Source: Oidiodendron maius Zn
Lineage: Eukaryota > Ascomycota > Leotiomycetes > Myxotrichaceae
Assembly (NCBI GenBank): GCA_000827325.1
Contig: KN832878.1
Span: 248,001 to 312,000 of the forward strand
Direction: 5' to 3'
DNA: 64,000 bases
The notes below the pieces were generated by a model. The model saw only the letters and a list, made by a program, of their open reading frames with translations, searched no databases and was not told the origin of the DNA. Below, piece after piece: positions 15,691-61,953 of this stretch; position 1 is the first letter of the stretch, and every line of letters starts with the position of its first letter. A program made the position numbers and the translations under genes.

Positions 15691-17067
15691 ATGGGCAACA
15701 AGAATTACAGAGGCAAATCTGCGACATTCTCTACTCGCACTACTTCTGCAGGGTCTTCTATGTCTCAAATAGACGCCGCTACTCAGCCGGTCAAGGCCAG
15801 ATCTGACAGCGGCTTAGTCGGTGATTTCATGGGTGAGGTTACTCCTGACTCTTCAACTACACCTGGTACTAAGACCTCGCCTCTTCCATTTCGATCTTAC
15901 CAGACTGGTACACTGCACTCCGACAACTTTGAGGCATCTTGCTCTACCGAGAAAACTGCGACTACCAAATTGAAGAAGCGACTCTCTGGTGCCTCACCTG
16001 CCTTCGTCCCTTCCGACAAAACGGATGGAAGCGCTCTCGCAGAAACAAAGACACTCAAGAAGCTGATGGATTTGCTTGCAACCTTCCCAAAGAACTCTCG
16101 TCATGATCGTGCCAAGAACAGCAGAATGTCGACGATAGCTCATAGTGGAGGCATATTGGGTACTCCAACTGATCGGTCTGTTAATACCAGCATCACTAGC
16201 CCTACTGCGACTGAATGTAAGAGTGAAGCCAAGATGGTTAATCACTTCCTGACTCGCGCCGACAAGTCTAAAAAGGATGTCATCATCGACCACTGTACCG
16301 TTTGGCACAATGTTGTTCGTCTGCTGGAGTACCAATATCCCTCTGGGGCAACGTATTACGTGCCCACGGAAGAGTTCCAGCCACCGAACTATATATTTGA
16401 ACGTGTTCACTGCCAGATGAGAGACAAGGAAAGAATTGACTTCTGGACCAACAACTGGGTCGAGATCGTTGTGAACATTGGTGAGATCGGTGTCTGCTCG
16501 GACTTCTGGGCCAAGTCAGCCAAGGATATGGAGGAAGATCTTCTAGAGCACCAGGTTGCCATCGTCAATGTTATGAATAGACTTGGCGAAGTCTTCACCA
16601 CTTACACCCGCAATGTCTTCGTCATCATCCAGTTCCCTGACGACAACCGCGAAGCTCTGCCCAACAAGGTCAACTCATGCACTAAGGAGCAGCAGGATTC
16701 CCCTGGCTACCGTGCCATCCAGAACATCGCTAACAAGCTTAAGGAATTCTCCTCTCTCGCGCGAGTCGAGATCATTCTTTGCACACCGGCCTACTCACGC
16801 AATCCGATCAGCCTCGAGCAGCTCAACTATGCTCTCCCATTCTACGAGCTCCCCTTCACCAATTGGCTGCTCAAGTGGCAGAACACGTTTATGAGCCGCC
16901 CCGAGACTGTCAGGGGTTGGCCAATAGCCTACCTCGACATTGAACGCGGCAAGATTGATCGCGAAATCACGAAGGTCATGCGTGAGCAGGAGAGAGCCTT
17001 GCAGGAGCAGATATTCGTGCGCGCCAGTGACTCACCTGAGGTTCATGATCTCCCATTCGCCCCTTGA
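15691..17067 (+). CDS. Conserved-looking protein of unknown function, 458 residues
   Basis: A single uninterrupted frame. The first 180 residues are low-complexity Ser/Thr/Lys-rich and probably disordered. From about residue 180 the protein is folded-looking with regular hydrophobic spacing: VIIDHCTVWHNVVRLLEYQY, then DFWTNNWVEIVVNIGEIGVC, VFVIIQFPDDN and FTNWLLKWQNTFMSRP. No signal peptide, membrane helix or known catalytic motif is visible, and I do not recognise the family. The start is the first ATG after a long pyrimidine-rich leader, in good context (AAAATGGGC). The combination of an intron-free frame and a long leader suggests a regulated gene, but that is inference. Confidence 0.75.
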   Translation: MGNKNYRGKSATFSTRTTSAGSSMSQIDAATQPVKARSDSGLVGDFMGEVTPDSSTTPGTKTSPLPFRSYQTGTLHSDNFEASCSTEKTATTKLKKRLSGASPAFVPSDKTDGSALAETKTLKKLMDLLATFPKNSRHDRAKNSRMSTIAHSGGILGTPTDRSVNTSITSPTATECKSEAKMVNHFLTRADKSKKDVIIDHCTVWHNVVRLLEYQYPSGATYYVPTEEFQPPNYIFERVHCQMRDKERIDFWTNNWVEIVVNIGEIGVCSDFWAKSAKDMEEDLLEHQVAIVNVMNRLGEVFTTYTRNVFVIIQFPDDNREALPNKVNSCTKEQQDSPGYRAIQNIANKLKEFSSLARVEIILCTPAYSRNPISLEQLNYALPFYELPFTNWLLKWQNTFMSRPETVRGWPIAYLDIERGKIDREITKVMREQERALQEQIFVRASDSPEVHDLPFAP

Positions 17068-22444: not shown

Positions 22445-25400
22445 ATGATACAAATGCAGCGCTCCCTCTCTCTCCCCGGCCCGGCACACGCCACTCCTCG
22501 TACGTCTCTGTTAAGCTCCAAGTTTTATGATTTATGTATGCTTGTATAGGGGCACAAGAGTTTTCCTGCTAATCCCCTGCTCCAGCCATCTCTCCCACCA
22601 TCACCCAGCTCTCGTCGAGGAGCCCGACCCCCTCCCCCGAGAGTCTTAACCATGTAGTCCCGCCACGACTCCAGCGGTTCCAGTCACGCAGCCCGAATAG
22701 ACCCCCTTCCTCCTACAAAGAGAAGCCGGCAGAGCGAGAGAGGGCGCGCAGCTTTTCGCGCCATGTCTCTCCCTCTCCAGCTGCGCGCACAATCGACATC
22801 GTGCTACCCCCTCCCTCTTCCAAGAACCCCCCGCCCGAGCCCGAACTCCTGCCCCCAGCAAAGTTGCCCCAGCTGCCCCTGCTCCAGGATATCTCCCAGT
22901 ATACAAACCCCCAGATTAGTGTCGTGACCGAGGAGGTGGCCACCACGACTTTGGAGGAGCTCGCCCACCTGGTCCGGCTGTCCACATACCAGGAGAGGAA
23001 GCGGACGCACTCCCGTATCCGCTTGCACAGGTCTCTGGTCTCGACTTCCCTCTCTGCCCGTCTGGCACGTTGCGGCGAGTTGGCACACCGTACACTGGTT
23101 GACAATTTCAGGGCTGATGAGAAGAAGAGCTTTGCCACTCTGTACAATGCTATCCACGACGTACGGAATTCCTGCGATGCCACGCGCAAGTTCGCCTTGT
23201 TGGAGCCCGATTTGGATAAAGGGCGTCCCAGCCTAGCGGACGACCCGTCCTCCCTCTCCACGTTCATGGGTGAGATTCCACAGCGCTCGCGTGATACCCT
23301 CTTAAACTTCCTCACCCAGATCCGTACGAACCCGGATTACCTGGCCAGTCGCATTTCTTCGCTGAATCCTTCGGAACTGGCCGCCTTGACCGCTTTCCAC
23401 CAAGGATTGGAGCCCATAGATTCCGTTCTGACATTTCATACGCGTTCTAAAGGCACTTCCTCCTCCCTCTCTCGCAATTCTTCCTCGCATATACCTACTG
23501 CTGTTGAGCGTCTCCTTTCCTTCCAGCGTCATGACCCCCTCTCTGCTCTCATCCATACATGCTTTGCCAACTCTGCCGGCCCAGATTCGGGCGAGGACGT
23601 CCGCAGAACGGATGTCTGGGCCACCACCTGCGCTAGGCTCATCACCGAGAGCAAACCTGGCACGGATCCCTTCATCTGCAGCGTCTTAAACGTCTGGACC
23701 GCAATGCGCGATTGGTCAGGCCGCAGTAACTTGGAGTGGTACCTGATGAAGATCCTTGAGGATGGAGCATTTCTTTTGGAGAAAGCAGAGGAGCACGCGG
23801 GCCCGCGTCTGCATATCGAACCAAGGAGTGCCAAGGATGTCATTGCTGCCGATGAGTTCTATGATAGCGCGATCCAGGGCCTTTTTGAAGTGGTAGATGA
23901 CCCAGGATCCGGAGTTATTCCAGAGGGCCTTATTGAGCTGGGTAACGCCATAGTCCGGAAATTGGATCCCAAGCGACACAACCCCACCAGGAGATTTCTT
24001 GTATCCAAGTGGCTCTTTTCAGTTTTCCTTCTCAATGCTATTATTCACCCAGAGGTATTTCTTTACTGTGGCTACTAGAATGTTATAGCTGACTGTATTT
24101 AGTCTTACGGCATGATGTCTGAGTATCATATTACCGAGTATGGGAGACAGAAGATTTTGAAAGAGGTCGCCATGAGATCGCAACGGATCGTGGTTGATCT
24201 GACTTGGTATGCTTGGTACTAATTTCGACTATCAAAGACTAATAGTTTACAGGAACAAATCGGCTTCTACTCCACTCGCGCTCAAGGGGCACATCGAGAA
24301 CATAATGTCTCGTTTCCGCTCAAGCCGACCATCCCGGCCGAATGCAAAGCTTCTCCCTGCGAGATCCATCACATCTCTGAGAGAGACTGCTGAGGTGCAT
24401 CCTTACCTCGTCCTAGGACCGTCGGATCTCATAACTATGGTAAATGCTCTCTTCCCGGAGAGGCGTCCTGTCTCTAGCTCTTTATCAAAGGACCACTTTA
24501 ATGGGTTGAGATCTGGCGCATCGTCAATTTCCGGGACAAATTCCATCCCCATGTCAATGCCTGGACCGCCCAGAGGTGGCTTTGATAATGCCTCTATTAT
24601 CAGCACGAGCGGATCATCAGTGATCAGCGACACCACCACTTCACGTGAGCCATTGCTGGATGATGGTTCAAGCAGTGGACAAAGATTTTTCCCTTCGCCT
24701 ACTGCATCTGGAAATCAATCTCAGCGTCTGAGCTTGTATGAAGATGATGCGTTTGAGCTTCGCCTGGCACTGTATGAAATGGCCCAAACTCTTGGGGCAG
24801 ATGGCGTTACCGGTTCTTGCCACCCCTGCGCAGAGAAGTGGGCTGTTCTGTTCATGTCTCCAGATGGACAGAGGCTGTCTACTCAGATGATGCATGATCC
24901 CGACGACGATAATGAGGACGAAGAATCTACCTCCAGCAGTGAGAGCGATGATGAGGATAAAGTATCCCGGCCGGATCTGGATAAAGACTATCACCAGCTG
25001 AGAGACTCTATACTAAAGCTTGTAGAGGACTACGAGATTCCACAATTCCTTGATTCGAAGAGCGAGACCAAGACTTTCAGCAACAGGATCTCCACAATGG
25101 ACGGCTCACGCAGGAAACCACGCAGCAGACCCGGATCGTCAGCGCAGACACAGTCAAAAAATCCTTACCGTACGCGAGATCCTTCTCCTGAGAAAACCAA
25201 GCAGGTTGACTCCAAGAACCGGCCTCGTAATTCCGAAAGCCGCAGGAATTCGGAATCAGAGCCGCCGTCCGTCTTGATCTATATGCTCGAAGCAGCTGAG
25301 AAGCAGTGCCAGTCTCAATCCGACTTCGTCAATGCCCACCTGTATTGGAAAACGCTGCAGCAGCTCCAGCAACTATCTTCGCCTTCGCTGAAGAAAGATG

Positions 25401-27805
25401 GGTTTGCTTCTCTTCTGAGTATCTTCTCCAGAGGGCCACGTGACTCGATCAGACGCTCCACAGGAGCAATCGAGGAGTACGACGCCTGGCTAGTCTGGCT
25501 CAAACAGTCACAGGAACGCCACGACAGTACTATTGAAGTTATGGTGAAACGGCTGAAGGCTTTACGAGACAAGATGTGGTACGTCACGGATGTCAGGAAC
25601 TCTGCGGCATACGAGGGCGCCCGCAACATCGCGTTTGCTTTGAAGAGCATGGCGACGCCGAAGAAGAACCCAGATGGTGGAATACGCCCGCGCACGCTCT
25701 CACGACCGCCCTCACGACCGCCGGCAAACAACTTCCTCCTCAAGACCGAGGCGCAGATCATGGAGGCCATGGCTGCAGCGGAGGAGCAGGGCGGTCCAAA
25801 TAAACTGTCCGATGAACAGTCGGATAGAACTCTACGCTGGTTGTCCCAGTTTGGTATCGAGAATTTCTGTAAAGGCGAAGAACGCATCCATCGATTCTGT
25901 CTCGAAATCGAATCCTGCATTAATAAACTCGTTGGGGACAACCTGATGGAGGGACCTGTATTATGGTCTAGCGAGCTGTTCTATAGGGATAAACGCATAT
26001 TGGACAGTGGACGTCATAAAGGGGATCTCTTCCTTAATGGAATTGGATCCTTGAATATCTCGGGAGATGATCCCCACGAGGCTGAAGCTGGACGGCGTGG
26101 ATTGCGAAGTACCGATTTTAATCGACCAGGCAATCTCCGCGCAATGTCGGTGAGAAATGGGTCACAACAGAGTTTTGACTCGGGAAGGTACAGCATGTCC
26201 AGGCTGAGCACGACAGGGGATCTCATGGATTCTCAAGACTACTTTGGCATGGCTAGCCCGGTATTGACGATCGATTCTGCCACAACCTTCTGGTCGCCAT
26301 TCCAAACACGCGTCCAGTCCCCGACGACGAGCATCAGCAGCCATAGACCGGGGACCGCCTCTTCTACCAGTGAGACGGTCATGATGAAAGAAGAGCAAGC
26401 TGGGCTAACAAGGCAACGATTCTTGCATGACCTTAAGCAGACCCTCACGAGCCTGCTTATAAGTGATCTTGGTACACTTGTCTTCGCTCGAGGCAGTGAG
26501 ACGGATTCCTGGTTCTCCGGTAATTTCGGCCAGGACTGCATGGAGAGGAAGGATAGAGCTGAAAAGAAGCTGCGGAGAAGGAGTAAGAAGCGCACGCTAG
26601 AGAAAAAGAAGAGTTTTAGAGATTTGCGCGGCGCACAGCGGCCGGAATCGGGAGAGGGGCATGAGAAGCTGTCTAATGGCACAACGCCGACAAGAGAGAA
26701 TGGGACCCCGGAGGTGCATTCTACGGGCGAGTATTCGTCTACCAGCGACACTGTGGTGAACGGATCTCGAAACAGCATGAGCAAGGAGCTGGAGTCGCCT
26801 GAGTTTCCCTACAGGAAAGCGTTCCAGCGACTGCTGAGGATGTTTTCCGTGCACCCCAATCCATATGCCAAGCTTAACGCATTGTACGAGCTGGAGCATC
26901 TGATCATAGCATACCTAACTCCATCCGCGCCTCGTCGACCGAGGATACGCCAGGAATCGTTGACCGCTCCACACACTCCTGAGGTGCAGCACATAAGCGC
27001 CTTTGGGCCTAGCGAAGCCATTGCAACCGCCCCACGAGCTAAGAATCTGGAGGAGGCAATCGACAATTGCAAGGAGCGCCGCTCCCAAACCATCAACCGC
27101 CCAGAATCTGCCTCCTCGCCAGTACACCGCACCTCAGAGCGCTCGTCGGCCTCACCCAACCCTGCTAGCACAGATATGATTGTGGAGGTCCTGCAAGACC
27201 TCTTCCGCGATGCTGATGTGCGGCCCAAGACGCTCTTCCGTGACCTGCAGTTCATCGCATCTTTCGTGCCCGCGTATATCCTCGACAAGACCGAACGCGG
27301 CAAAGCCTTCTGGGATGCGGGTCTTGCAGCTCTCGGCTTGAAACAAGACGTCTGCCGCACGCTCATCGAGATCGCAGACGAGGTCGTCGTGCACTACACT
27401 CAGACCCGCAAGACTCTCTCCTCCACCCCGGATCCCTCTGCACAAGCAAATGGCACCTGTGACGAGATCACGAAATACACCATGCAAGATGCCGCGCGGA
27501 TGTGGACCATCACTGCCCGGGAGGGTGACCCCGTCGCCGAACGTGAGCTAGCCATTTTCTACTTAACCCATCCAGAGCTCGTAGAACGCATCACTGCGCC
27601 GCTGAGCCGGCCCCGGGAGACCTTCAAGGCGCAGGTCATGGAGATGCATGGCGGTGGAGCGGGAAACGAAGAGCGCGATCGGGAAAGGAGCGACCCCACG
27701 ACCATGTGCGTGGCGTATCATTGGATGGAACTCTCTGCACAGGGCGGCGACGAACTGGCAAAGAAGTACTTGAGGCAGAGAGAGGAGCTGAACGCCATTC
27801 CATGA
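22445..27805 (+). CDS. Large 1726-residue protein with RasGAP-like helical stretch
   Basis: Exons 22445-22499, 22586-24054, 24103-24206 and 24253-27805. The short first exon (starting MIQMQRSLSLPG) splices in frame into a Ser/Pro-rich region, and there is no ATG in the coding frame near the start of the long second exon. Residues about 130-550 are mainly helical and include RRFLVSKWLFSVFLLNAIIH followed by PESYGMMSEYHITEYGRQKI. This resembles the FLR...P.I..P segment of RasGAP domains, but the diagnostic arginine finger was not identified, so the link is tentative. The middle is disordered with an acidic run (EDEESTSSSESDDEDK) and basic Ser-rich stretches. The C-terminus (DAARMWTITAREGDPVAERE, then CVAYHWMELSAQGGDELAKK) looks like two Sel1/TPR-type helical repeats. 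It is probably a conserved cytosolic signalling or scaffold protein of filamentous fungi. Confidence 0.75.
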
Positions 27806-54388: not shown

Positions 54389-57300
54389 CTATGAATTATA
54401 TAACTCTCTAAATGCACTTGGCCTTCCAAGTAAAGCCTTAGGAGTATCAAATTCGAGTAGTTCACCCCCACTTAGGAGAGCTATTCTATCAAAGTCCAGG
54501 ATCGTATCCAACCTGTGGGCGACAGCAATAATTGTGCAGTCATTAAACTCGCTGCGGATAACTTTTTGCATGAGCTCATCAGACTTTGTATCGACACTAC
54601 TCGTTGCCTCGTCCAAGATTACCACTTTACTCTTTCGCAAAATGGCCCGCGCAAGGCAAAATAACTGCCTCTGGCCGTGCGAGAAGAATTCCGCATCTAG
54701 GTCGGCGTCCAAGCCACCTTTCTGCTGGACCAGCTCCCAAAGCTGTACCTTCTCAATTGCGTCGATGATCTCGGTATCTGTCTTCTGGCCATTTGGATCT
54801 GCATTTATTCGGACATTTCCAGTGATAAAAATAGGTTCCTGAGGAATGGCATTTAACCTCTCTCGGACGAGCTGCCTCGGGATCGTGGTAATATCGACTC
54901 CGTCAATCGTAATTGAGGAGTCGTCTGTGATCTCGAGCATACGGAATAATGTACTCACCAAGGAGCTTTTACCGCTGCCGCTACGACCACAGATTCCAAT
55001 CTTCTCACCCGGTTTGATCGACATTGCGAAATTACGGAGAACAAGGTCGGAGTCGACCGAATATGAAGCAGAAACTTTTGCGAACTCAATTGCTCCTCTG
55101 GTTGGCCAGTTATCCGGCGGGGTTTCAATTTCTCTGGGAAGGTTCTCAGATGCCGTGTGGGCAGAAAAGCTCTTGAGTCGTGCAATTGCGCCGAAAGAAG
55201 TCTCGAGGAGAGTCCAGTTCTTAATAATCTGAGCTAGGGCGCTATTGAAGGTCGTCTATCATAACAGGGATATTAGCACGTCGTTACCTTAGAGCTCATT
55301 GGTCAAATAAAATATAAAAGTTCAATTACAAAGGTATCTGAACTTGAGAGAACGTACCACATTCAACAAAGCCAGACCAACGAAGCCGCCAGAGACGTCT
55401 GTTCGCAACTTAACAACGAGAACCATCAATATCACACCAAGAATAGCAACCATAAGGTCCAATAGCAGGCCTAGCCAGCGTTGGATGCAGAATAAGAGAT
55501 AATATGGTTTCTGAGAAACATCCAACAACTTCAAGTTTAATTCTTTGAAGTGCTCAGTCCACCCAAATGCTCGAATAGTAGCGAGACCAGACAGTGACTC
55601 AATAAAATTAGAGTATAGTGGAGACTTCGCTTCAAGATCAAGAAGGCGTAGCTGGCGTGATGTTCTAAGGTAATACTTTTGCAAAACTGTAGTCACGAAT
55701 GTTAGCATAGAAAGTTTTCCGAGACATCAACATTAACCTACTCCAGACGGCCAAAATCACTGGAGGCAATGTAGCGGCAAAGTAACCCGCGGATAGACAC
55801 ATAAGAATAGCTCCCATTATCGCCATCACAGTTGAAAGTGAGAGATCAACTAAGGAATAGGGTAGCTCGGCATCTATTACCGTCATATCCTGACTAAACC
55901 TGCGTAATATTTAGCACGCACATGGAATTAGCACTATCTTCACACTAACCTGTTTGTTGTAGTGCCAACGTCTGTAGAGGTGAAGAAGGAAAGGGGGGCG
56001 GCCATAACCGTTTTTAAAAGTCTCTCATGCAGCACTTCTGCGCTCTTTGGCACCATGTACAGGGCCAACACAATCACCGTGAGCGTGAGCGTAAGAGTTG
56101 CAAGCCCGGAGAGTAGCGCAAACATGCCTAGATAGAAGCCGTTTACCACATTGCCCCTTATAGCCACGGCGCTCGTCCCTGTGATTTGTCAGAATATCTT
56201 GTATTTGAACTCAATCATGATTTCTAGGAGCGTAAAATTCGTCTATCGGAGAGAAAGATGAAAATAATTGGCCCTTACAATAAGTTAATAGGATTTCGGG
56301 CATCTTCGTTGTGACCCCAACCAAGACCGCAAAAACGAAAAACATCAGCACATGTCTCCATCTCATTGAAGCAAAATAATATTTGTAGACTGAGAAGTCA
56401 CCACTCTGTCTATTGAGCTCTTCAGCGTGGGCGTCGTGTTCATCTGCAGTGGCCTTGAATGCACTAGTATCTAACTTGGCGGCTTCTTGTGGCTTTTTTT
56501 CTGAAGAATCATCGCTGTCTCTAAGTTTGGTCGTAATGTTTTCAACATAACCGCCTGACGTCTTAAGCTGCTCAAAGTGGCCTTGTTCTATGACGTGTCC
56601 GAAAGAGTCGAGTGCGATGATGTGGTCGGAAAAAGGCAGTCTGTGAACAGCGTGCGTTGCAAGAAGAACTGTCGTGCCCATCCGGCGGAGTAGCCCTTCG
56701 CCTCCAAATAATCTGTTGAACACTTGATCTTCAGTCTCTGCATCAAGGCCAGAGAACACATCATCCAGAAGGATAAATGTCTTCCTTGCATAAACAGCGC
56801 GAGCCAACGCTACCCGTTGCTTTTGGCCCCCGCTGAGTGAAATTCCTGCACTTCCAACAGGAGTGGCTAATATTTTCAGCTCTTGAGTCTAACGAATATG
56901 GGAGCGCCCGAGACTTACCATGGCCTTTAGGCAATTTTGAAATATCGAACTCAAGAGCACAGGCCCTGATTACTTGGCTATACCAAGATTCGTCAAAACT
57001 TGATACACCTAGAATATTTTGTTGTATTGTTGCGTTTTGAATCCAAGGGGTTTGGTCGTTGTAGGCAATACTCTGCGAGCTGCTGTATACGAACCCCTGA
57101 GTTGAAGGTGTCTCACCAAGTATTCCCTTCAGCAGAGTACTTTTACCACTCCCTACTGGTCCTATTATGAAACAAAATTGCCGTTGTAAAAGTGTGAGGT
57201 TGATGTCACTGACATCAGGACGTCCTCCGGAGTTCCAGCCGAAACTAGCATTTCTTATAATCATGATTGGGGAAATTTCTCCTGGGCCTAATAGGGGAGA

Positions 57301-59500
57301 TAAATCTCTTAACTCGACACCACTGTTCGACGCACTTGTCTGCTGATCGAGAGAAGAAACATCGGCGTTTTCTAAGGGTAAGCGATGATCCATTCGCGTG
57401 CCAGAGTTTAGGAATGATTGGATTCGCTCGAAGCATGCCATGGCAGAGTTTATTTGTGGAATAGCCGCAATTAGAATGTTCATGGGACTCGCTATCAGAG
57501 AGATAAGTGAGAGAGCAGTGAATGATGTTGCAGCGTCAAGTTTCTGGCCAGTTATCCTAGCACTGACGACAAATACAGCAAAGGTTGCGAGAGGCGCGAA
57601 CGTTTGTGTAAAATTTGCTAAGAACACGCGGCCACAGAGCAGCTTGCGAAATTTTCTGGAAAGCCGCAATTCTGTTACTCGAAGACCTTGGACAATATTA
57701 GACATAATATTCGTGAATCCTAACATTTTAATGCCCTGTGGCTGAATTAGACAGTGATTGGTGGCATTATCACAGACAACATACCTTCATTGATGAGAGC
57801 ATTGAGGCAGAAACATCCACTCGAGTCTGAATGCCTTCGATCCAAATTTTTTGAGCATTTCCCATGTACTTTGCCATAATTAAAATACCTGTGGTGGAAA
57901 ATAGTGTTACAACAGCGGTAGCCAAGAAAGCCAGACCTAGTTGCATGTGGAGGAGATACAATGCAATTCCAAGTTCGATTGGAACGGCCCAGAACTCGTG
58001 AAGAGTCGTGAAACCTTGGCAAATTGTTTCTTCAATCTTATTATCAGCATGGGGTATGATTGGCCTTAAGATTATTATGGCTTCATACCCGTGTCACTTG
58101 CCATTAATGTGACGGCTGCAGACTCATCTAGAGCTGTGATGCTTAGATCGATGGTCTTAGCATAGATCATGCTAACAAGAGTCCCCCGAACGGAAGTAAC
58201 AAATCGGTATGTCATGTGGTCTACATAGTAGTGTCAGTGTTCTCATTCTACCACTCCCAAATCGGAGGTTGATGAATCCAAATTTGGAGGCAGGCAGACA
58301 TACAATAGCTTCCATTAGCTACCGCCAGGCCGATAAACACGATCCCAAATGCCGCGGTAAGACCCCAGCCTACTACATCGGGTTCTTTGGGATTGCTAGC
58401 GAAATCGACAGTCCGTGATAGTAAAAATGGCTGTGCATATCGAAATCCAGTCAAGCAAAGACGTGGGAGTATGCCGTAACAAAATGGCACTAATGATGCT
58501 CTCAGGGTAGCCCACAATAGTGCCCTATGCTTTGTTTTGTCCGCTTCGGCCCAAACCTTCTGGGCATAGTCACTTAGTCTAATGGAGGTCATTTCTTCGT
58601 CGATAGGATATAGATCCTCATTGTTAATAACTCTGAGGTACCCAATTCGCATTAATCTACACAATTAAGCTTCGAATAAGCCTACTTGAAGAAAACCTGT
58701 CTACAAGATATACGTACTGATTCAACCACCAAAAGAAGCTTCGGCTGTATATTCCACTAGTGGCCTCGGGAGATGTGTGTCGATATCGATCTAATAGTAT
58801 GGATCTCTTTTCCATAGCTTCAGTAATAAGAATTATAAGCTTGATTCCCAAAGCACTAGTAAAAGCAGCCGCTACAGGCCTCGTCGCTCGTCCTAGCCAT
58901 AGCGTTCTGGCTCGAGCGGCATCAAACGGCAGTGTGAGCAAAAGATAGGCATTGATGATGGTCGACGGCCTGATTGAGTGGTTGTGTTCAGAGTGAGATA
59001 GAAAGCATAGCGCAAGGCCATCAAGGACGCTGAGAGTAGCTGCAACTAGAGTTGCACGGGTTCGCAAGACACGGGTTAAGGCATGTAAAATGAGGATTAC
59101 AGTTTGCATGCTTGTATATACAATAAGAAATAGCTATACTGATATTAGAGATGCATCAAACAGCAAGTGTAATAAAGAAATATCAAAACAAGCTAGAGTT
59201 TACCAAGCCCCTCCAATATTCAAGTTATATAATCACACTAGGTGGCAATTGACAAGCTGATTTGGACAGCAAGTGGAAAGGAAAGCCACATACCAGTTTG
59301 TGATCATGGAGTGCGCTCCATGATACTTTTCTTGGTTTCCGATGCAAGTAAAAGACACGAAACGGGACTGAGAGTAGCAGGAATATGGATGGCACTATTG
59401 AGAGAAATATATCTTCGAATAATGGGGTGAAGTCGAACTCCGGCGATACGGTAGGACCAAAAGATGTCACGGAGTAGACATCTGAAAGATTCGAGGCCAT
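54389..59500 (-). CDS. ABC transporter, ABCC/MRP type
   Basis: A full-length ABCC transporter spread over about ten exons, roughly 1450 residues. The start is at 59500 (MASNLSDVYSVTSFG). An N-terminal TMD0-like set of helices (LFEDIFLSIVPSIFLLLSVP; TVILILHALTRVL; AAFTSALGIKLIILITEAME) precedes TMD1. NBD1 has Walker A GPVGSGKSTLLKGILG, signature ISLSGGQKQRVALARAVYAR and Walker B FILLDDVFSGLD, where Asp replaces the catalytic Glu as is usual in ABCC NBD1. TMD2 includes FFTSTDVGTTTNRFSQDMTV. NBD2 has Walker A GRSGSGKSSLVSTLF, signature FFSHGQRQLFCLARAIL, Walker B VVILDEATSSVD and AVAHRLDTI. It probably exports conjugates or metabolites across the plasma or vacuolar membrane. Individual exon ends were not all fixed. 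Confidence 0.93.
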
Positions 59501-60004
59501 AGTAAAGTTGATCGACAAAACGACTCTCTAGAGCAATGGACGGAATCTGGACTTACATAGTAGCACAGCTCATGAAGGGATTGTATGTTTTATACTCATT
59601 CAGCCTTTGAATAATGTTGGATCCTAGAATTGAGCGGCGGATATTATCCCGATGCTGACATTCAGCCTCCCTTATCAAGACAGGGGGCCATGCAGCAACC
59701 TAAGCGATGAGGGGTCGTTGAAAGCTGATGCCTAGCTATCCAGACAGCCAAAATATGCGATCCTACAGAACAGTTGCGTACACCTTTCCACAGAATTCGA
59801 CCCATTCCAAGCAAGCTGCGCAAGCTTGTGCGCGGCCAGAGTGTTGTGGTACCTTGGCGGCGTGATATCTTTAGTCGACGGATGATGCGTACGGGTGTAG
59901 ATAAGCCTGTCGTGCCTGGCAAAGAGCGCCTCAAGCAGCTTCAGAAGTGACTCGCTATAGGGTCGTTGTGGAGGAGAAGCACACATGCCAGCGAGCTCTA
60001 GAAT
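59501..60004. other. ABCC promoter region
   Basis: Contains the upstream region of the ABCC gene and the 3' flank of the ligase-like gene. Minus-strand frames of 84-90 codons around 59.66-59.99 kb have no recognisable domain. Confidence 0.5.
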
Positions 60005-61469
60005 TCACACTGCGCCTATCCAGCAGCGTCGCCAGGGATCATAAGTCAATTCCTTTCCTTGATCAACTTTTCCAACACATTCCAAGATGCGCCAATCGTA
60101 TACCTCTACCCATAGCTTTTCTCTTTGAGGAGTTTTCAGATCCAAGCTTTCAATTCTTCTCATAAACTCGGCCGCGTCGTTTGCTCTCCTTGATTCGACA
60201 AGAGCTATCCTTCTGTATTTCTTGCCAGTTTGAGGACACCGGTTTAGCATGACTAGACTAGAGAACGCCTGGAGAGAGGTAACATAACTCACTCCATGCC
60301 AAGGTAGCAAGTTCTCAATCAGCCAGGGGGTTGTCGATATGCAAGGCACGAGAATAAACAAGCAGTTAGATAATGGGCAAGTTTGCCCAGTCAGCCGACA
60401 TATACCTTTCCCTTTAACAAAAACTTGCGGGCTGGAATTATCGGAAAATTTGGAGTTATTTTGTTCTCCAATTTCTGGGCTACAATGCTTCATTATTACC
60501 GTCTCTGTCGCGTTTACACCTGGCGAAATAATGTCTGACCTGCAAATGGCGTTGCCTGCTGGAGGTGACAGTGATCCCAAGGCTGTGGCGGGTGGCGTTG
60601 GCAGAAGGCTGTCAACTGATCTAAGAGAACTTGCTAATTTCAATGACCCTGGTCCCTCTCGACGCAGCTTAACTGGTATCGAGCTGGAGAATTGGGCGCG
60701 GACTTGAACGCATCGGGGGAGAAAAGAATGGTTTGACCGGCAGGCCAAACTATCAGGAAACTTCACAGGGCTGATATTCTTGAGAATGAGGCGAGTTAGC
60801 CATTTTGCCTCTCTGGAAGCTAATCGTTGATAAAGTTCTCCCAGAGTATCTATGGTGTCATATTGCATACTTCCAAGAGTCAAAGATCGGACTTCCGCAG
60901 AGGAGTCTTTGTTCTGCGACGCGATCCGGAGCAAATATTCATCAACCATTTCGACCGTCACTGCACATGCTTGAGCTTTGATTGCCAAGCGGTGCTTCAC
61001 CTACAAGGATACGTCAGAAATAATCTCAACATATGACAGCGACATTTAGGAGAAGACATGGAATATATCCAACGGCCGCATACATATTGAAGAAACTTAC
61101 ATGAGCCATATTCTCCATAACTCGCTCTACACAAGAAGCAAGATCTCCCTGGGCGGGCCCATTCCGCCATCTCTGCAGGTCTTGGCAATGCCGTTTTGGG
61201 AGGTTCAGTACCCTGGCAATTATATTCTCCAAGGACCATTCGTCCAGTCCATAGATGCGGTCCGTTCTCTTTTCTGGCTGTAAAGTCAAAATGACGCAGT
61301 CATCATCTGTCGCTGTCGCATCGAGGAGACCGCGGTGTCTTTTCAACCAGCGAAGCGTGATCTCAGTCGTCCGCTGGTCTAGATCCTTTGGCAGAAGGGG
61401 CATAACATGATTGTAGAGGTGCCTCAAATCTTCAAGAAGATCACACACATAGACAAATGGAAAGGGCAT
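60005..61469 (-). CDS. DNA-ligase-IV-like protein lacking the catalytic core
   Basis: Predicted 454 residues from exons 61101-61469 and 60005-61000. Residues 1-240 match the DNA ligase N-terminal DNA-binding domain of ligase IV type: TTEITLRWLKRHRGLLDATA, KRTDRIYGLDEWSLENIIAR, VTVEMVDEYLLRIASQNKDS, SREAKWLTRLILKNISPVKF and HSFLPRCVQVRAQFSSS. In the family this is followed by the nucleotidyltransferase domain with the K-x-D-G lysine and the OB fold, about 400 residues. Here the frame runs directly into a Ser/Pro linker (SLLPTPPATALGSLSPP) and a C-terminal domain (CRLTGQTCPLSNCLFILVPC, EVYDWRILECVGKV, YDPWRRCWIGAV). There is no K-x-D-G motif and no room for one in an intron. The frame is clean otherwise, so the gene may be expressed as a DNA-binding, non-ligating protein, or be freshly deleted. 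Confidence 0.78.
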
Positions 61470-61953
61470 CACCGACGAGCAGCATTGGGAGGATTGTCAT
61501 AGATGATTAAAGTTTGATATTTTTGAGTGGAGCGAAAGCGGAGAAAGATCAATAACGCGTGGTCTCGTGATCAGGTCAAAGAAGGGTTTCCCGATCCGGA
61601 CATCCCAGGTAGATGACATAAGCAGAATCCCCCAAGGCTACGAGCAACTATGGGCTCACGATGACTTCACAACTATATCCCACTCGGATCCAGCTTCTGT
61701 CTCTATATCCTACCTTTGACACGTATCTTCTCCGTTTCCTTCTTGCAAATATCTGGGATACCGGGTGGCGCTTGGGAGGCTCATTCTGCACGTTTTCCTT
61801 TTGCGTGTGCTGCTTTTGCCCTTCTCATCTCAGCTTTTGTTGGAAGTAATCACACACCCGGGATCGACTGCTTGCTTTTCGCACCGCCAACCTCCTCCAC
61901 GTTCATTTCCAGATCGCAGAGCTTCATAACCACCTCCGCATACGATATGCAAC
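61470..61953. promoter_or_regulatory. Divergent promoter region, ligase-like / DUF4048-type genes
   Basis: 484 bp between divergent start codons. Short frames on the plus strand near 61.66-61.95 kb overlap the leader of the next gene and are not supported. Confidence 0.5.

Follow-up and report, generated by a model that had tools for sequence, protein, structure and literature searches.

ATP-dependent DNA ligases carry the active-site lysine motif KxDG, and their nucleotidyltransferase (NTase) and OB domains together make up about 400 residues. In DNA ligase IV, tandem BRCT domains lie at the C-terminus, and there is also a linker to which XRCC4/Lif1 binds. Longer ligase-IV-like paralogues, which go by the name “ATP dependent DNA ligase domain protein,” occur in other filamentous fungi. 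Their N- and C-terminal parts are presumably similar to those of the protein that we describe here; unlike our protein, these paralogues carry the catalytic domain. Ligase-type proteins that are unable to seal DNA, yet have a role at breaks, are described in the available excerpts of two papers as inactive point mutants of Dnl4/Lig4 (PMC3694833, PMC11754673). For example, yeast Dnl4 without catalytic activity continues to promote imprecise end joining, probably via Cdc9, and dead Dnl4 mutants retain their normal interaction with Lif1 (PMC3694833, excerpt). These mutants keep all of their domains (the changes are point mutations), whereas our predicted protein is without whole domains. A fungal protein of this kind was not described in the literature that we searched by title and by the start of the abstract.

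The gene in question lies on the minus strand of the window, by which we mean the entire stretch of 64,000 nucleotides that was analyzed (C9:248001-312000, from a genome of 45.9 Mb in 58 contigs, all of which was searched). Judging from short introns and from its Pfam content, the genome is probably that of a filamentous ascomycete. In a single predicted open frame, a DNA-binding domain is followed by a short linker and then by a C-terminal region of an unrecognized kind, with no NTase or OB domain. The explanation that we favor, and to which we give about an even chance, is that this is a ligase-IV-type paralogue that has undergone an internal deletion or rearrangement and that is probably dispensable.

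The protein has 454 residues and comes from two exons on the minus strand (61469-61101 and 61000-60005). Exon 1 (61101..61469) encodes residues 1-123, which are the first half of the ligase N-terminal DNA-binding domain (PF04675 positions 21-102). The intron (61001..61100, 100 nt) has a GTAAGT donor, a CTGAC branch, and a TAG acceptor. Exon 2 (60005..61000) encodes residues 124-454, ends with a TAG stop codon (60007-60005), and includes PF04675 positions 104-159. The overall match to PF04675 (60776..61397, minus strand; residues 25-198) is split by the intron. The next segment (60422..60775, minus strand; residues 199-316) comprises the last part of the DNA-binding region and the unassigned linker, and it is here that the NTase and OB domains would be expected to start; the junction within this segment is not placeable to the base. 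The rest of the frame is the C-terminal region (60008..60421, minus strand; residues 317-454), which matches no recognized family. We found three intron pattern matches in 59900-61500: the intron just described (61100-61001), a variant that shares this acceptor but uses a donor at 61083, and a candidate at 60870-60771. According to the intron scan, the second and the third of these shift the frame.

At 331 codons, the open stretch of exon 2 exceeds the longest frame of every one of 1000 first-order Markov sequences, among which the maximum was 222. The two-exon ligase-like frame exceeds chance expectation, and the initial annotation was correct that the frame stays open after a ligase N-terminal DNA-binding domain. 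The gene is present in a single copy: one six-frame search of the genome returned three places, which were its own two exons and a third place at E 0.15.

The match of the protein to PF04675 (E 8.8e-15; 55.8 bits versus a cut-off of 24.6) covers positions 20-159 of the 174 in the profile. In a six-frame search of the whole genome, each exon matched the profile on its own, with 25.1 and 25.2 bits. Because the match stops at position 159 of 174, and because the alignment does not reveal, in the window protein, the stretch that comes after the long helix of other ligases, we consider the end of the DNA-binding domain to be divergent.

Among the genome's three other ligases, the ligase IV on C3 gave the best pairwise score. 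Its local score against residues 1-235 of the window protein was 62 (z 6.3), which is above all of 300 shuffles (maximum 54). The corresponding scores were 43 for the C7 ligase (z 2.7; shuffle maximum 48) and 33 for the C1 ligase (z 0.8; shuffle maximum 56). In phmmer, the three ligases rank in this same order, and ligase IV comes first at only 7.8 bits. The nearest PDB chains to the whole protein are also DNA ligase 4, and this similarity is weak (E 0.28). A ligase-IV-like label for the window protein appears reasonable on these modest pairwise scores. The PF04675 domain is common to the window protein and DNA ligase IV (human LIG4, yeast Dnl4, and the C3 copy), but, unlike DNA ligase IV, the window protein has no NTase domain, no OB domain, no KxDG motif, and no recognized BRCT domain, and the end of its DNA-binding domain has diverged. 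Given its family membership, it is plausible that the protein binds DNA. If translated, it would at best be able to hold, via its ligase-type domain, duplex DNA that is nicked or broken.

Neither PF01068 (adenylation) nor PF04679 (OB) was listed for the 454-residue protein at E values of up to 10, in a search whose reach is limited because the HMMER filters discard most matches above about 0.1. A motif scan found no K.DG, and indeed no DG, anywhere in the 454 residues. When we compared residues 220-320 with three catalytic regions, no remnant of a catalytic domain was detected (z of -1.1, 1.0, and 1.8). Downstream of the PF04675 match, which ends at 60776, only 771 bases remain, with the stop codon (at 60005) included, and this is too little to accommodate the NTase and OB domains with their approximately 400 residues.

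Genome-wide, PF01068 matched four places at E 0.001 (two on C1 and one each on C3 and C7), all of them in ligase genes. For PF04679, three of the four candidates that were scored are listed at this threshold, and these are in the same C1, C3, and C7 ligase genes. No orphan place for either domain was found at E 0.001 across the 58 contigs, in a search that was six-frame and exon by exon and that a heavily broken displaced copy could escape. We rejected the idea that the catalytic domain had moved elsewhere because its places are confined to those three genes. The initial annotation had named a hidden adenylation exon as one of the findings that would overturn its reading, and no such exon was found. 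The other intron candidates do not keep the frame, and an unannotated exon is very unlikely, given that the locus has no room for one and that neither domain has an orphan match. Overall, the claim that the catalytic domain and the active-site lysine are missing holds for this assembly, and the domain search of the full protein came out the same way (PF04675 found, PF01068 not listed). Because these domains and the lysine motif are absent, the window protein as assembled is unable to adenylate or seal DNA; if the assembly is right, ligation by this protein is excluded.

A ligase IV gene with the catalytic motif is present elsewhere in the genome, on C3, and the initial annotation had proposed that such a gene would support a separate role for the window protein. 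The C3 gene has the lysine motif IEEKLDGERMQ, and its C-terminal frame contains one BRCT match (C3:1608330-1608560). Its N-terminal part matches PDB chains of DNA ligase 4 (E 8e-40), and one of the chains matched by this ligase IV, 3w5o, is human LigIV according to the available excerpt of PMC6035275. The genome also contains two Ku matches (on C1 and C2) and two further ligases (C1:1378921-1380884 and C7:598503-600253), each with matches to PF04675, PF01068, and PF04679. We take the C1 and C7 ligases to be ligase I-like, judging from their motifs, and the N-terminus of each presumably has a short stretch that resembles a PCNA-binding box.

Because a ligase IV gene with the catalytic motif is present, we lean slightly toward the window gene being a relic or a dispensable copy rather than a gene that is kept by selection. 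It would most likely have arisen from a complete ligase gene, through an internal deletion or a rearrangement. We infer a complete ligase as the ancestral state, since the searches turned up no orthologue that has a catalytic domain. With exon 2 as the query, none of 67 pattern matches was confirmed in a collection of genome contigs (genome_contigs), and none of four was confirmed in a collection of viral contigs (viral_contigs). Since this query found no relative, a clean and recent deletion is likewise something that we infer.

Codon usage leans weakly toward relaxed constraint on the window gene. The linker and the C-terminus have codon scores that fall within the bottom 3 to 7 percent of 90 gene chunks and well inside the range of random sites. 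When all codons are considered, scores as high as these occur at 36 percent (linker) and 58 percent (C-terminus) of 2000 random sites, and on synonymous choice alone, about 80 percent of random sites reach them, in a test that separates coding from random sequence poorly in this genome. The DNA-binding exons score in between: 15 to 17 percent of random sites do as well on all codons, and 31 to 35 percent on synonymous choice. The low scores of the linker and C-terminus could indicate relic DNA or weak codon bias.

Alternatively, the protein might have been retained as a non-catalytic binder of DNA ends or nicks, which would act as a competitor or a scaffold in end joining. We consider this unlikely. 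It would fit with the frame and the splice sites being intact over 454 codons, with the presence of the ligase IV gene and the two Ku matches in the genome, and with the imprecise end joining that dead yeast Dnl4 still supports (PMC3694833, excerpt). However, the codon scores do not favor a retained binder, no BRCT region was recognized in the protein, and the DNA-binding domain is divergent at its end. Furthermore, the dead Dnl4 mutants keep their interaction with Lif1 (PMC3694833), a property that is only hypothetical for the window protein. Less likely still is a pseudo-ligase that selection maintains beside the catalytic ligase IV because it occupies nicks or DNA ends and thereby shifts end joining to other ligases. 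A loss of whole catalytic domains that spared the part of the protein that grips DNA would offer a test, provided by nature, of the non-catalytic role that dead point mutants led others to propose for ligase IV; if the gene is no more than a relic or a fault of the assembly, then it would reflect ordinary decay of a paralogue or a sequence error.

The initial annotation had assigned the C-terminus to the ligase family. This assignment was not confirmed: residues 317-454 have no convincing similarity in Pfam, NCBIfam, PDB, or the genome's own ligase IV. For residues 307-454, nothing in Pfam was above the cut-off (the best E value was 0.095, for an unrelated model), and there was no relevant chain in PDB (the best E value was 0.76, for an antibody chain). 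NCBIfam, which is made for bacteria and archaea and is therefore a weak test for a fungal protein, had no match at E values of up to 1 when the two exons were searched apart. We also compared the C-terminus with two C-terminal stretches of the genome's own ligase IV, of which only the first is confirmed as BRCT by PF00533, and the scores were at the level of shuffles (z of 0.2 and 0.0). Of the 14 places with a match to PF00533 (BRCT) at E values of up to 10, none is at the locus of the window gene. Thus, neither the pairwise comparison nor the PF00533 search detected a BRCT domain in the C-terminus. Single-sequence fold models were uninformative (pLDDT of 30.9 for exon 2 and 33.0 for residues 317-454).

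It is quite improbable that the gene belongs to an old fungal family in which the catalytic domain was never present, or was lost long ago, and in which the C-terminus is an unrelated domain. The C-terminus was without kinship to the BRCT sequence of ligase IV in the tests that were made, and the DNA-binding domain is only distantly similar to known ligase IV (E 0.28), as such a family might show, but the longer ligase-IV-like paralogues of other fungi have a catalytic domain and presumably a similar C-terminus. Least probable is a collapse or misassembly that dropped about 1.2 kb from a normal ligase-like gene: the would-be junction does fall within a single exon, but the window contains zero N letters, no direct repeats of at least 12 bases, which might promote a collapse, were found in 59900-61600, and the contigs hold no orphan catalytic domain at the threshold given above.

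Elsewhere in the window, three plus-strand frames (15691-17067, 22801-24078, and 24209-27805; 458, 425, and 1198 codons, respectively) have no Pfam match at E 0.001. Downstream of the ligase-like gene, on the minus strand, lie pieces of one or more ABC transporter genes (54389-59109), with PF00005 in the frames at 54389-55024 and 56761-57726. On its other side, a gene for a DUF4048 protein (PF13257; 61954-63252, plus strand) adjoins it divergently. Within the gene, a perfect 12-nt inverted repeat pair (60305-60316 and 60625-60636) flanks most of the linker region; on a rough estimate, chance alone would yield about 0.09 such pairs in 1.7 kb.
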